Assembly: GCA_944323725.1 (NCBI GenBank) | Contig: CALUTP010000029.1 | Span: 1-38,717, forward strand | DNA: 38,717 bases | DNA from: Candidatus Gastranaerophilales bacterium | GTDB taxonomy: Bacteria > Cyanobacteriota > Vampirovibrionia > Gastranaerophilales > Gastranaerophilaceae | Reading direction: 5' to 3' | Shown: piece after piece, positions 3,013 through 36,717 of the stretch | Position numbering within the stretch: the first letter of the stretch is position 1 | Layout: the number at the start of each line of letters is the position of its first letter | Position numbers and translations under genes: made by a program | The notes under the pieces: generated by a model | The model's input: only the letters and a program-made list of their open reading frames with translations | Database searches by the model: none | Told to the model about the DNA's origin: nothing

Positions 3013-3014
<2 letters not shown>

Positions 3015-3045
3015 AAAAAGAGGGTTTTTAAACCCTCTTTTTTTT
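3013..3045 (+). terminator. Intrinsic terminator after enolase
   Basis: A-rich arm and AGAGGG (3015-3024) pair with CCCTCTTTTT (3033-3042), followed by a run of T. It isolates enolase transcription from the attenuator-controlled gene downstream. Confidence 0.9.
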
Positions 3046-3050
3046 AAGTA

Positions 3051-3079
3051 TTGACAAAATATTTTCTTACTTATATAGT
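3051..3079 (+). promoter_or_regulatory. Strong promoter of the Trp-type leader
   Basis: TTGACA (3051-3056), a 17-bp spacer, and TATAGT (3074-3079). The -10 ends six bases before ATG 3086, the start of the leader peptide, so the leader mRNA probably begins at its own start codon. Confidence 0.85.
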
Positions 3080-3085
3080 AATCGT

Positions 3086-3133
3086 ATGAGAAATAATGTA
3101 ATTAAATTAAATAGAAATTGGTGGCGCCTGTAA
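3086..3133 (+). CDS. Tryptophan leader peptide (attenuation)
   Basis: A 15-codon reading frame encodes MRNNVIKLNRNWWRL and ends with TAA at 3131-3133. Two adjacent TGG codons (3119-3124) lie directly before the first pairing segment of the attenuator (3127-3132). The layout is that of enterobacterial trpL, whose E. coli peptide also contains WWR. Its expected role is as a sensor: a ribosome waiting for charged tRNA-Trp at the TGG codons covers segment 1 and lets segment 2 pair with segment 3. The ATG has no ribosome binding site and coincides with the predicted transcription start. Role is inferred from geometry; expression is not shown by sequence. Confidence 0.75.
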   Translation: MRNNVIKLNRNWWRL

Positions 3134-3203
3134 GAGTACAGGTGTATAATGCATAAAATTTTTATGAAAGACCTGTACTATAAAATTCAGTACAGGTTTT
3201 TTA
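3124..3203 (+). promoter_or_regulatory. Transcription attenuator, four-segment, with intrinsic terminator
   Basis: Segment 1 CCTGTA (3127-3132) pairs with segment 2 TACAGG (3137-3142), with outer G-U/C-G pairs. Segment 3 ACCTGTACT (3171-3179) pairs with segment 4 AGTACAGGT (3189-3197), followed by T residues to 3202, forming a terminator. Segment 2 can instead pair with segment 3 (TACAGGT 3137-3143 with ACCTGTA 3171-3177), which removes the terminator. This is the geometry of amino-acid attenuators: 1:2 plus 3:4 stops transcription, 2:3 permits it. The coding region starts at 3230, after an AAAGG site at 3213-3217. Confidence 0.8.
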
Positions 3204-3229
3204 GTTTGTTAGAAAGGTTTTAAAATTTT

Positions 3230-4417
3230 ATGCAAGTTACATTAATCAATACATTATCAGCCCCGCTTAAAGCTGCAGCACGTTTTGTTAATTCTCAAGA
3301 ACAAGCCTCAGGGCTTTCTACATCTCGTTTTATTCAAGATACTGGGACTTGTCTTTTACCAAAGGCTGCTTTTGCAAGAAGTAAAGCAGATTTAGCTGAG
3401 AACGCCGTATTAGAACTTTCTGAAAGTGCATTAGTATATTTTGCCCCAGCTTTAATTGGTGAAAATATTGCAAGAAAGGTTTTTTCTAAAAATCTTAATG
3501 AAGTTGAAAAAAAGCTGGTCTCAATGAATGCAAATGAGCTTATGCAAATGAAAAATCCTGCTGTTAAAAAAGTTTTACCAGTGAAGGCTGCAATTGCTCT
3601 TACTGCTATGCTTATTCCACTTACTGAGTTTACTCTTAATTATTTTAAAAATCTATTTACGTTGAAAGTGTTTAAAAAAGGTGATTTCAATACAATAGCA
3701 GCATTGGATAAATCTCCTGAAGATAAAGCAAAGCAGAAGAAAGTAGAAAAAAGTGCATATAAAAATATTAAAAAAGCGGGTATTATTTTTTCAGCATGTC
3801 TTGGATTAGGGGCTTTAATTGCTAAACGCGGAAAAGATTCTAAAACTCTACAGAATATTTCAGAATTTGTTCTTGCTCCAGGTTCAAAACTTTTCAAAAA
3901 AAATGAAAAGGCTAAAAAGTTTTTTAATAAATATGCCAGCATAGATTTTGCTTCGCAGAATGGCAAATTGGTTTTGAGCAAAGGACAACTGACATCGTGT
4001 GTTTTTATAGGCGGAGCTGGATATTTTGGAGCTTCAAAAGATAGAGGAAAACAAAATTTTTTAGAAACCCTTTTCCGTTATCCGCTAGTTGGATTTTACA
4101 TAATTACCGGTAGTGAGCTTTTTGAAAAAGGATTTAAAAAAATGCTTCAAAAAATGGGCAAATGTAGAGAAACTATTGACAAAAACCTTAATACTCCAAA
4201 ATTTGATAAACTTGAAGAAATTGCAAAGACTCTTGCTAAAAAAAATGGAACAAAAATTGATACTGAATTTAAGAAACTTGCAAAACAAAAAGTCTTAATT
4301 TCTGGAATACCTTATCTATTTAGTATAGGTATTATGGGATTTTTTGTAGCAGGAATTTCAAATTTATTTACAAAGTACCGCTACCAACAGGATTTTCAGC
4401 CCAATAAAGCCTTATAA
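3230..4417 (+). CDS. Trp-free membrane protein behind a Trp attenuator, unknown function
   Basis: I do not recognise the family. The 395-residue product has hydrophobic stretches near residues 68-80, 121-145 (AIALTAMLIPLTEFTLNYF), 182-197 (AGIIFSACLGLGALIA), 253-265, 283-296 (YPLVGFYIITGSEL) and 363-383 (IPYLFSIGIMGFFVAGI), separated by lysine-rich segments, so it looks like an integral membrane protein. It contains no tryptophan, which fits a protein made when tryptophan is short. It is the only gene downstream of the attenuator and overlaps the convergent gene 4368-6257 by 50 bp. A role in tryptophan or indole handling is possible but only inferred from the leader. The lysine-rich loops recall other lineage-specific membrane proteins such as the one at 9169-10200, without evident sequence identity. 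Confidence 0.85.
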   Translation: MQVTLINTLSAPLKAAARFVNSQEQASGLSTSRFIQDTGTCLLPKAAFARSKADLAENAVLELSESALVYFAPALIGENIARKVFSKNLNEVEKKLVSMNANELMQMKNPAVKKVLPVKAAIALTAMLIPLTEFTLNYFKNLFTLKVFKKGDFNTIAALDKSPEDKAKQKKVEKSAYKNIKKAGIIFSACLGLGALIAKRGKDSKTLQNISEFVLAPGSKLFKKNEKAKKFFNKYASIDFASQNGKLVLSKGQLTSCVFIGGAGYFGASKDRGKQNFLETLFRYPLVGFYIITGSELFEKGFKKMLQKMGKCRETIDKNLNTPKFDKLEEIAKTLAKKNGTKIDTEFKKLAKQKVLISGIPYLFSIGIMGFFVAGISNLFTKYRYQQDFQPNKAL

Positions 4418-10673: not shown

Positions 10674-10702
10674 ATTGTAAGGCAAGCCTAACATTTTGTC
10701 AA
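10674..10702 (-). promoter_or_regulatory. Autoregulated promoter with DtxR-type operator
   Basis: On the minus strand TTGACA (10697-10702), 17 bp, TACAAT (10674-10679). The spacer contains GTTAGGCTTGCCTTAC (10677-10692), which differs from operator 1 at 8566 by one central base. The -35 overlaps the stop codon of the upstream amidohydrolase gene. Confidence 0.85.
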
Positions 10703-11859
10703 GCTATTACTTTTAAAGATTTTTGAGTAATAGCATCAGGTCTTGATTTAAAAGCTTGTACAGCTGCATTTATTCCAGTCCCTATTGCAAGAGCTCCACC
10801 AATTATTAGTGCGCCGGTTTTGGAGGAAGCGAATTTTTTTACAGCACCTTTAATCCCTTTTGCAGGAATTTTTTTTACCCAATTTTTAGTAAAAAATAAT
10901 TCTTGAGCATTTTCATAGAATAATTTATTTATTAGAGTTTCAGCATTGTTAAATTTGCCTCTTATTGCTGTTTTAATTTGTTCAATATTTTTTCTATAAT
11001 ATTGTGGATCCTTAATCCCGTCAGCTCCAAATTTACCAAGCGGAGCATCCGTTCCAAAAAGAAGTCGGCTGGTCATATCCCCTTTTGAGGTATGTTGTAG
11101 TTTTTCTAAGGTATCAAGTATAACTTTTTTATCAGCTTTTCCATCATCTACCCAAGAGATATCTGCATATATTAAAGCGTCTCCTTTTTCAATTGAATCT
11201 AAAAGTACTTTTACAGCTCTTGAGTGGCTTTCCTCTCCTGCTCCCATATGAGCAAGAATTACTGGCACATTTGGATGGCGTTTTGCTAGTGCATATACTT
11301 GTTCCGGTGAAGAATATGGACATCTTATCGCGTCTGTATGGAATAAGCATGGAAAATTATTTTTTTCGGCAACTCGCATATAATCATCATATTTTGCATC
11401 ATCTGCAGCAAGTTTCATATGCAGTGGATGAAATTTTAGTCCATAAAATTTTCCTTCTTTTATTACTTGTCTAATTTGGTTTGCATTTGGTGTTTCATTC
11501 GGCTGGCAGACAGCAAGGGGTTTTAATATAGGCATTTGGGAGGATATTTTAAGCATTTCTCGGTTACCGTCAAGTTCATTTAAATATCTTATCTGTACTC
11601 CTTTTTGTTTAGCTTTTTTTTCTAATTCTGGAACTTTGTTATTTATGCAGTCTAAATTTGATACAATAATTTTTTCTACTGTGTCTGCTCCGCCGCTTAT
11701 GGGTTGTGATAGAATGTCTTTGAAATGTCGTATTTCAAATTTATCGCATGTCCCAAAAAGCCCGTCGGTAAATGTTCCTACATGAGTATGGGCATCTATT
11801 ATTTTGCCGGTAAATTTCGGGTTGACTCGATTGTGAAGTTGTACATTTTGAACTTTCAT
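10699..11859 (-). CDS. Amidohydrolase-2 family metal-dependent hydrolase with C-terminal membrane segment
   Basis: A TIM-barrel hydrolase of the amidohydrolase superfamily. Metal-binding and catalytic blocks are DAHTHVG (Asp22, His24, His26), YGLKFHP, CLFHTDA, VILAHMGAGEES and LLFGTDAP. The barrel ends near residue 330. It is followed by a lysine-rich stretch and a hydrophobic segment (TGALIIGGALAIGTGINAAV), which could anchor the enzyme to the membrane. The N-terminus has the motif KFTGK (15-19), shared with two unrelated proteins of this window. AGAGG precedes the ATG. A leader of roughly 150 nt with hairpins precedes it (see 11880-12030). Substrate unknown; 386 aa. Confidence 0.85.
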   Translation of the reverse strand: MKVQNVQLHNRVNPKFTGKIIDAHTHVGTFTDGLFGTCDKFEIRHFKDILSQPISGGADTVEKIIVSNLDCINNKVPELEKKAKQKGVQIRYLNELDGNREMLKISSQMPILKPLAVCQPNETPNANQIRQVIKEGKFYGLKFHPLHMKLAADDAKYDDYMRVAEKNNFPCLFHTDAIRCPYSSPEQVYALAKRHPNVPVILAHMGAGEESHSRAVKVLLDSIEKGDALIYADISWVDDGKADKKVILDTLEKLQHTSKGDMTSRLLFGTDAPLGKFGADGIKDPQYYRKNIEQIKTAIRGKFNNAETLINKLFYENAQELFFTKNWVKKIPAKGIKGAVKKFASSKTGALIIGGALAIGTGINAAVQAFKSRPDAITQKSLKVIA

Positions 11860-12079: not shown

Positions 12080-13432
12080 TTAACTCCTATTATCACTTTC
12101 TATATCCTCTTTTATTGCATTAAATAAAGAAAAACAACAGCCCCACATCGATACAACACTAGGTTTAGCTGTTTTTTCGTAGTTACATTTGTTAAATAAA
12201 ATAGTACCATCGTCTCTTGTATTAAAAAGTAGTTTCCTTGTGGAATCTGTATATTCGCCTTGAAGATAAATCCTTTGATTTTTTATTTCTTCTGCTGAAA
12301 AGGCTTCTTCTATTGGAAAAAGTTTCCCTTTAAAATCTTTTATGTTAAAACGTCTATCCCCATTTAAAAATGATTTAAAATTTTGAATTTCCTGAGGGTT
12401 TGCTTCGACTTCAGCTATATTCCGTCCTACGTATTCAAGTAGATTTTCAATATTTTTTACCATTTTATACTTATCAATAGGATATTCAATAGTAGATTCA
12501 TCTGTAAAGCTAAATCCTTTTACTTTTCCATTTTCTCCTCGTATAGGTGTGAAGTTATAAACTCCTCTTGCTCCTCTTGTAATACAACTATCATAGGATG
12601 TAAATAAATGATCATTATTATTTTTATCTTTTAGTGCAACTTTTTCTGCATTTGAAAGTGAAAATAAATTGAAGTCATACCAATTATTGTTTTTTACAAA
12701 TTTTTTCATTTCACCTACAGTATTATTAATATCTTGACCATGTGAAATGTAATAATAAAATTCTGGTTTAAGTTTTCTATCTCTGGCTAGCCATTTTATA
12801 GAATTTTCTATTGGATGTCCTGATGGAACATATACTTTTATGCCGTTAGCACATGCTTTATTTATTTCTTGGATTATGGGATAAGTATATTCAACACCCT
12901 GCCCCATAGGGTCTAGGGCTCTTATATAGTGCATATTATCATTTGGATATTTTGATAAAATTTCTAACATTTTTAATATTTTACTGCCTTGTTGGTCAAG
13001 ACCTACATTATCTGGTGTTAAATTTATATTTTGCTCAAATATCTTACTCATCTGGTTAGATAAATTTTGCAATGATATATGCATCCCAAGAGGTATTGCT
13101 ATATAATCAGGTTGTTCATTTTTGGGTAAATTATTAATTTGTACAAGGTTATCTCTCAGGCTTTTTAATTGTTTTATTCTGCGGTCTTTTGGATTTAATT
13201 CAAGAGGTAAAATTTTCAAATCCATATTTTTATCTATTGCTTTTGCAAAATAATATAAATCATCAGCATGCTGTCCACCATCCAGCATAAATACATTTTT
13301 ACCATTAAAAGATAAATTATTATATGCACTAAAATTAACACTATTACCGGATCCATGTTTGGGTAATGTGCGTGTTATGTAATTTTTATAATTCTTTTGG
13401 TTAATGTAATTGTTTGTTATACTTAGTTGCAT
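12080..13432 (-). CDS. Protein of unknown function with N-terminal SFNGK motif
   Basis: I do not recognise this 450-residue protein. It has no signal peptide and no clear membrane segment. An Asn/Ser/Tyr-rich N-terminus of about 45 residues ends in LSFNGK (40-45), like two other proteins here. Then follows an ordered region starting NVFMLDGGQHADDLYYFAKAI, with further motifs DYIAIPLGMH, MHYIRALDPMGQG, GIKVYVPSGHPIENS, FYYYISHGQD and SVVSMWGCCFSLFNAI. The alternating strands and the conserved-looking His/Asp/Ser residues suggest an enzyme with an alpha/beta core. No ribosome binding site is visible before the ATG, and it may be co-transcribed with the GNAT gene 59 bp upstream. Confidence 0.8.
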   Translation of the reverse strand: MQLSITNNYINQKNYKNYITRTLPKHGSGNSVNFSAYNNLSFNGKNVFMLDGGQHADDLYYFAKAIDKNMDLKILPLELNPKDRRIKQLKSLRDNLVQINNLPKNEQPDYIAIPLGMHISLQNLSNQMSKIFEQNINLTPDNVGLDQQGSKILKMLEILSKYPNDNMHYIRALDPMGQGVEYTYPIIQEINKACANGIKVYVPSGHPIENSIKWLARDRKLKPEFYYYISHGQDINNTVGEMKKFVKNNNWYDFNLFSLSNAEKVALKDKNNNDHLFTSYDSCITRGARGVYNFTPIRGENGKVKGFSFTDESTIEYPIDKYKMVKNIENLLEYVGRNIAEVEANPQEIQNFKSFLNGDRRFNIKDFKGKLFPIEEAFSAEEIKNQRIYLQGEYTDSTRKLLFNTRDDGTILFNKCNYEKTAKPSVVSMWGCCFSLFNAIKEDIESDNRS

Positions 13433-35611: not shown

Positions 35612-36685
35612 TTAATCTTCATAATCTTCAGTTTTACTAGGTGCATTGGTAGATTTAACACTAAGTGAAGAATATCTATATTTGCTTCCATATGGATTAT
35701 TTAGAATAATTGAGGATGGCATATCGCCTGGCAGGTATTCGCCTCTATCTTCAGCGGTATTGTCATCTTTTAGTGTATAGCGTTTTACGTCATCAGTTCT
35801 AATATCGTATATATAGTATTCTATAGGTTTCCACTGATCATCTCTGCCATCTTCAGGTTTTCCTTCAATTCTTGGTTTTTCATATGTTAAAGCAAGACTT
35901 CTATCGTTGATTTTAGAGAATTTTAATCTTGCATATTGTTCATTTTTACCAAGAACTACTCCCCCTTGATCTTCATCAAATGGAGTTTTTGTAATATTAA
36001 ATGTCATTTGGTTAACAGAAGAACTCTTTCCATCAAATACTGATTTGTTAAATGAACCATCTTTTTCATCTGTCCAAACCATTTTAACTGGAATTCTACC
36101 ATCACCTGGATCTATATTTAATGTTTTATAGAATTTCTTAATAATAGGTGCTACAGGTGAATCGTATTCTTCTTTCATAAATAATGTGTCAACTTTTGTA
36201 ATTACTCTGTCGATTGTATCATGTATGATTGAATCTCTATAAATTATTTGCGGAATTGTATCATGTATAATAGAGTCCCTATAAATTATAGTATCTTTTC
36301 CTGGAATTTCGACAGGGATTTTAATGGTATCGTGAATTAATGAATCCTTTATTACAGGCACTTCAATTGTATCATGTTCAACTTTATATATAGTATCTGG
36401 ATCCATTACAATTGGGATATATCTATCTACTGTATCAACTGGTACTTTAATTATATAATTATGTTCAAGGTCTAATTTATCGCAACTACCCAAACCGCCC
36501 AGAATCATTGAAGCTGCTAAGGCTCCAGTAGTATATTTAGCACCTTTTAGAAGACTTTTATCCCCATTATCATCTTTTTTCTTTCCTTCAAATTGAAGTT
36601 TTGGGGTAGTCATATTATTATTCTGTTTTGAACGGTTTGCCATATTTTTTGTTGGCATATAACTATTTATAGAGTTTATTCGCAT
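35612..36685 (-). CDS. Probable lipoprotein with 14-residue repeats and long N-terminal tail
   Basis: The 357-residue product (ATG 36685, GGAGG 5-6 bases upstream) is not recognised. Its first 47 residues are polar and include LQFEGK (30-35), like the motif in two other proteins here. Then comes a hydrophobic stretch ending in a lipobox LGSC (65-68; Cys68), unusually far from the start. After it, short repeats of the type IIYRDSIIHDTI occur twice in full (14-residue period) and several times in decayed form (about 80-150), giving a Thr/Asp/Ile-rich stalk. The C-terminal 190 residues look like a beta-rich globular domain. It is probably a surface-exposed lipoprotein; function unknown. Confidence 0.82.
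   Translation of the reverse strand: MRINSINSYMPTKNMANRSKQNNNMTTPKLQFEGKKKDDNGDKSLLKGAKYTTGALAASMILGGLGSCDKLDLEHNYIIKVPVDTVDRYIPIVMDPDTIYKVEHDTIEVPVIKDSLIHDTIKIPVEIPGKDTIIYRDSIIHDTIPQIIYRDSIIHDTIDRVITKVDTLFMKEEYDSPVAPIIKKFYKTLNIDPGDGRIPVKMVWTDEKDGSFNKSVFDGKSSSVNQMTFNITKTPFDEDQGGVVLGKNEQYARLKFSKINDRSLALTYEKPRIEGKPEDGRDDQWKPIEYYIYDIRTDDVKRYTLKDDNTAEDRGEYLPGDMPSSIILNNPYGSKYRYSSLSVKSTNAPSKTEDYED
36213..36296 (-). repeat. Tandem 42-bp coding repeat (two full copies)
   Basis: Copies start at 36213 and 36255, and the first 34 bases of each are alike at most positions. They encode the 14-residue unit IIYRDSIIHDTI plus two residues. Decayed copies flank them on both sides (for example near 36325 and 36366). 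Confidence 0.8.
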
Positions 36686-36717
36686 ATATTCCTCCAATTA
36701 ATACTTTGCTGGTTACA

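Follow-up and report, generated by a model that had tools for sequence, protein, structure and literature searches.

Leader region between enolase and a membrane-protein gene

The window, by which we mean the whole 38,717-nt stretch of DNA that was analyzed, comes from a genome of Candidatus Gastranaerophilales (1.9 Mb, 99% complete). The interval between its enolase gene and a gene for a 395-aa membrane protein holds a promoter, a leader open reading frame (ORF), segments 1–4 and a T run, with the following coordinates.

3051–3079, plus strand: sigma-70-type promoter, TTGACA-17-TATAGT (consensus scan, 11/12 matches)
3086–3133, plus strand: leader ORF, MRNNVIKLNRNWWRL followed by a stop, 15 codons, ATG at 3086–3088, probably leaderless (sequence)
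3119–3124, plus strand: control codons TGG TGG (sequence; kept in orthologues)
3126–3132, plus strand: segment 1, which pairs with segment 2 and encodes a conserved Arg-Leu-stop (fold; covariation in type-B relatives)
3131–3133, plus strand: leader stop TAA, inside segment 1 (sequence)
3136–3143, plus strand: segment 2, partner of segment 1 or segment 3 (fold; covariation; masking)
3171–3179, plus strand: segment 3, partner of segment 2 or segment 4 (fold; covariation; masking)
3189–3202, plus strand: segment 4 (3189–3197) and T run, forming an intrinsic terminator with segment 3 (fold; covariation; covariance model R1)
3230–4417, plus strand: group W membrane protein, 395 aa, Trp-free, all-helical, of no assigned family (sequence, profile searches, AlphaFold2)

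A preliminary description of this DNA, made from the letters, had proposed a strong promoter, a leader of 15 residues whose Trp codons are adjacent and whose stop lies within segment 1, and mutually exclusive pairing segments that lead to a terminator with a T run. The promoter and the leader can be read directly from the sequence, and the exclusive pairings are borne out by folding, by masking folds and by the covariation described below. Specifically, the region folds with −33.5 kcal/mol, while its shuffled versions average −19.1 (z −4.5, with 0/200 shuffles as good). When segment 1 is masked, the 2:3 antiterminator forms (−14.6, for RNA ending with segment 3); when segment 2 is masked, the 3:4 terminator does (−17.0). 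In the full-length RNA the terminator is more stable than the antiterminator, which is what a kinetic switch would lead one to expect. With the stop inside segment 1 and segment 2 starting at 3136, the placement lets a terminating ribosome mask segment 2. A cmscan of the window against Rfam, including its trp leader family, matched a tRNA and RNase P alone at the gathering score, a result that does not exclude an attenuation mechanism.

The leader ATG lies 6 nt 3′ of the −10 element and has no Shine-Dalgarno sequence. Leaders like that of the window, in which the stop falls in segment 1 (type A), have a distance of 6 nt more often than any other. We therefore regard the leader ORF as probably leaderless, with the transcription start placed from the promoter, a point that the preliminary description had not raised. 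Type-B Trp leaders, and the Met leaders introduced below, have a Shine-Dalgarno sequence and a spacing of ~25 nt. In Sinorhizobium meliloti, the trpLE(G) leader transcript begins with the ATG of trpL and is thus leaderless, a likeness that in the window is suggested by the 6-nt spacing (PMC7298713).

Two further features adjoin the switch. A palindromic hairpin with flanking A and T runs follows enolase at 3013–3044, directly upstream of the attenuated promoter, and could serve as a terminator on either strand; at the other end, the last 50 bases of the membrane-protein gene (4368–4417) overlap the 3′ end of a convergent 629-aa ORF on the minus strand.

Conservation of tryptophan and methionine leaders

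Of 286 genomes of the order, 158 gave a homologue in a protein search, and we read the upstream regions of 132 homologue genes, which fall into group W (n=99, about 48–100% identical to the window protein) and group M (n=33, 39–49%). In the protein tree, group W is one clade (support 100/100), and W and M together stand apart from all other homologues (100/100). Adjacent Trp codons are present in the leaders of 97/99 group W genes, and the remaining two, both from genus g9, have one Trp codon each. In the sister paralogues of group M, 32/33 genes are preceded instead by leaders with Met runs, for example MQNNTMMMQMMMMQSLMSGGHCYAFRMC, a methionine counterpart that also goes beyond what the preliminary description saw. 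Promoters of the form TTGACx-17-TAnnnT, like that of the window, lie at the equivalent place in orthologues, and the genes upstream differ among orthologues although the leader is kept. Outside its conserved end the leader peptide varies freely, and a C-terminal WWRL-stop is kept in many leaders.

The preliminary description had named an alignment of leaders from related genomes as its own check, with missing covariation and a lost TGG pair as refutation; the outcome is positive both for the TGG pair and for the three pairings. We aligned 28 type-B Trp leaders, in which the 1:2, 2:3 and 3:4 helices are paired in 90, 87 and 96% of cells and contain 4, 6 and 6 pairs, respectively, with changes on both sides. 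The covariation score of each helix was reached by 0/500 shuffles, which take no account of relatedness, and lay above all slid controls. Taken together, adjacent Trp codons in 97/99 genes and compensatory changes in all three helices amount to more than chance. The stems of type-A leaders, to which the window belongs, are nearly invariant and show little covariation of their own. In 17 Met leaders, pairing holds in 93% of cells for the 2:3 helix and in 96% for the 3:4 helix, and the covariation scores of both exceed those of all shuffles, which again ignore relatedness; the count of 2:3 pairs with changes on both sides is unexceptional.

A covariance model built from type-A leaders (R1) matches the window at 3119–3206 with 86 bits. 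This is its sole match in the genome, and its top matches across the 286 genomes lie upstream of the W gene. We inspected 20 weaker matches elsewhere and found an adjacent-Trp leader in none of them, most being ordinary gene-end terminators, and we consequently dropped the idea that attenuators of this type also act on other genes.

The leaders also vary in ways that we record here as observations. Met-type leaders (L104–L133, alignment A7) share an invariant CGAATGT at their end, downstream of segment 2, which encodes Arg-Met followed by Cys-stop or by a stop. Some type-B Trp leaders, for example L015, L008 and L026, have a further Trp codon near the leader end (LSWQ-stop, FCWR-stop), and a ribosome stalled there would mask segment 2. 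A Trp-leader sub-type in genus g24 and relatives (L050–L066, L073, L074 and L076) has very different segments, GGGTTAG..AACTACCC and GGGTAGTT, and ahead of the gene a second hairpin, which is long (AACTTGTGAAA..TTTCACAAGTTTT); the g24 structure is larger and arranged otherwise. In certain leaders, most of them from genera g24 and g6, automatic terminator detection failed or returned wrong hairpins.

Divergent homologues of about 415–620 aa occur in other families of the class, several per genome. Some follow leaders with WW or WWW (L315, L316, L317, L325 and L332) and others follow Met-rich leaders (L318, L322 and L328), most with predicted hairpins before the gene. In the tree, these other-order homologues with Trp or Met leaders do not group with the W and M groups of Gastranaerophilales; for this reason Trp and Met leaders seem to have come onto the protein family more than once, and a single ancient split into Trp and Met lines is unsupported.

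The membrane protein and tryptophan supply

The preliminary description had noted that no known trp biosynthesis gene follows the leader, in agreement with our searches, which gave neither a Pfam match over cut-off nor an NCBIfam match, nor any PDB sequence match with a profile; curated families of amino acid transporters likewise gave no sequence match. The protein has about six hydrophobic stretches, and its AlphaFold2 model is all-helical (pLDDT 90.5, pTM 0.86). Foldseek returned a best E of 0.11, and the best PDB hits reached a VIA Z of ≤7.0 with receptors and ABC exporters mixed and no clear family; searches against PDB and viral models yielded nothing significant, an absence that is no proof of a new fold.

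The description had also stressed that this 395-residue membrane protein is free of tryptophan. It does contain none, but the point is weak evidence when taken alone, as two further window proteins of at least 300 aa are Trp-free, and we rejected it as sole evidence (Poisson p 0.056 for one protein). In group W as a whole, Trp makes up 0.12 of every 1000 residues and 94/99 proteins have none at all; the corresponding values are 6.8 for group M and 7.3 for window proteins. Most group W proteins have Leu or Phe at two positions where Trp is common in group M (NWxPKA and RLWTQYR). However, the low Trp content of group W may be partly ancestral, because the group X paralogues are Trp-poor too and have no attenuator. 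Group M, for its part, is conspicuously poor in Met compared with both group W and the window (6.8 per 1000 against 13.1 and 20, start excluded).

Other sequence features concern neighboring families. A third, distant paralogue group of about 350 aa (L233, L234, L235 and L241) has no attenuator and lies directly 3′ of an apparent tatC in several genomes. Several unrelated window proteins (10699–11859, 12080–13432 and 35612–36697) carry a short N-terminal FxG-type motif (KFTGK, SFNGK and QFEGK) that is seen as well in group M and in other-order homologues and is possibly a common N-terminal tag.

Gastranaerophilales have been portrayed as uncultured bacteria that have reduced genomes and many auxotrophies (PMC7801254); the host genome lacks trpC and trpA. 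In a relative without the W gene (G240), a WW leader, MTKNFKNNLFWWCLY followed by a stop, precedes a trpEG-D-C-F-B-A operon (L257:148-310, G240:C73). Its pairings, GCUUGUAC/GUACAAGU (1:2) and ACAAGUC/GACUUGU (2:3) followed by a terminator, give an architecture like that of the window. Both observations uphold the earlier proposal of a response to tryptophan shortage. Directly upstream of the trp operons of G142, G046 and G168, no comparable WW leader was found. The conversion of indole or anthranilate, which the description had offered beside uptake as a possible role, is unlikely, because trpC and trpA are missing from genomes with the W gene.

Within the home family, the W gene occurs in 102 genomes and trpC in 16, and no genome has both (Fisher p 4e-4 over about 265 genomes, phylogeny ignored); in genus g47, 8 genomes have the W gene, 8 have trpC and none has both. 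Of the 27 W-gene genomes tested, all but one lack trpA over the cut-off. The exception is G046, a member of a different family within the order, in which the W gene coexists with trpC and trpA. Genomes with the W gene are thus mostly Trp auxotrophs, though many auxotrophs lack it: more than half of the Trp-auxotrophic relatives have no W gene, which implies that it is not essential for Trp acquisition. Nor does the link to auxotrophy extend to the whole class, since several g78 genomes with WW-leader homologues contain trpC together with a MetH-type gene, so that such genes are not confined to auxotrophs. For methionine, the synthase profile PF02574 matches 13/286 genomes of the order and PF01717 matches 3. 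With both profiles this rare, and with PF02574 and the M gene found together in G144, the comparison says little about any exclusion between methionine synthase and the M gene.

A probable tryptophan attenuator and the likely role of its target

The anatomy of the leader, its conservation, its covariation and the leader of the G240 trp operon make a response to tryptophan shortage well supported, and the leader is very likely a ribosome-mediated Trp attenuator, with stalling and dependence on tRNA-Trp deduced from the arrangement of its parts. Transcription would start at or just before the leader ATG. Given ample charged tRNA-Trp, the ribosome would pass the TGG TGG codons, reach the stop in segment 1 and cover segment 2, upon which the 3:4 terminator would form and the membrane-protein gene would stay untranscribed. 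When Trp is short, the ribosome would stall at the TGG pair and cover segment 1, segments 2 and 3 would pair, no terminator would form, and the gene would be expressed. Its nearly Trp-free product could then be made during Trp starvation, and would most likely aid a Trp-auxotrophic gut bacterium in acquiring Trp, as a membrane component of uptake, with the group M paralogue playing the equivalent part for methionine.

That the hairpins arose by chance, or are merely a terminator that separates enolase from the gene after it, carries next to no weight with us: such hairpins are common between genes, the weaker matches of the covariance model elsewhere are terminators and the enolase gene has a separate hairpin at 3013–3044, but this reading is refuted by conservation in 97/99 genes with differing upstream neighbors, by three covarying helices and by the promoter before the leader. 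It is also very improbable that the leader responds not to Trp charging but to another signal, for instance a translation inhibitor or a nascent-chain arrest of the erm or SecM type. The WWRL-stop kept at the C terminus of many leaders would fit an arrest peptide, yet pairing of segment 1 accounts for the conservation of Arg-Leu-stop while the other residues vary freely, the sister group has Met runs in place of WW at the equivalent position, a leader of like kind stands on the trp operon of G240, and 15 residues are short for nascent-chain arrest.

The main rival accepts the Trp attenuator and disputes the importer. The protein would then belong to the starvation response and be needed in the membrane when Trp (for the sister group, Met) runs out; it might, for instance, regulate growth, the envelope or peptide processing. 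The protein matches no transporter family or fold, the window gene is a single-gene unit, many Trp auxotrophs have no W gene, WW-leader homologues occur in genomes having trpC, and the TrpL-linked TrpP of Corynebacterium glutamicum proved to be no clear Trp transporter (PMC11995493). On the other side, separate Trp and Met paralogues fit amino-acid-specific work more easily than a general starvation response, and the W gene and trpC are mutually exclusive in the home family; we regard a non-transport role as a real possibility but a doubtful one. Two paralogues with switches for two amino acids point to amino-acid-specific functions, most simply uptake, and given Trp attenuation, the protein probably has a role in Trp acquisition, with uptake the form that we infer. 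The statement as a whole, a Trp attenuator that governs a membrane protein for acquiring Trp, and in the sister group Met, we likewise consider fairly likely. Only tentatively, and somewhat short of an even chance, do we suggest that these proteins may form a new family of membrane amino-acid importers in which the control codons before each paralogue reveal its substrate, Trp for group W and Met for group M, and which would include the first ribosome-mediated attenuators with Met codons. Methionine control is known to operate through riboswitches, T-boxes or repressors, and the literature searched, of which our coverage was incomplete, yielded no example of a ribosome-mediated Met-codon attenuator.

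The mechanism is of a known kind; what appears to be new is the gene that it controls, the version with Met codons and the taxon. Like trpL of Escherichia coli, other Proteobacteria and Actinobacteria, the window leader has adjacent Trp codons, a stop in segment 1 (type A), exclusive 1:2, 2:3 and 3:4 pairings and a U-run terminator. Unlike classical trpL, it controls a single uncharacterized membrane-protein gene in a Trp auxotroph, gives no match at the Rfam gathering threshold, and belongs to Gastranaerophilales, non-photosynthetic gut relatives of cyanobacteria. The Sinorhizobium meliloti attenuator governs trpE(G), and its leader peptide and sRNA act in trans (PMC7298713). In Corynebacterium glutamicum, a TrpL with tandem Trp codons adjoins a membrane protein that earlier annotation took for a Trp transporter; this TrpP has 170 aa and three TM helices and is related to SdpI, whereas the window protein matches no Pfam or NCBIfam family (PMC11995493, PMC1262725). 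Histidine leaders on hisS paralogues in bacilli show that leader attenuators can be recruited outside biosynthesis (PMC2965389), as here, where the targets are membrane-protein paralogues with two different control codons.

With these leaders, Trp attenuation reaches cyanobacterial relatives that live in the gut and, in Trp auxotrophs, a target outside biosynthesis; the well-conserved leaders of group M are a candidate for Met attenuation by the ribosome. The RNA switch points to the amino acid that is likely to be involved, which makes the function of this membrane-protein family directly testable. If the uptake reading is true, it would show which nutrients Gastranaerophilales compete for, and could guide the design of culture media.
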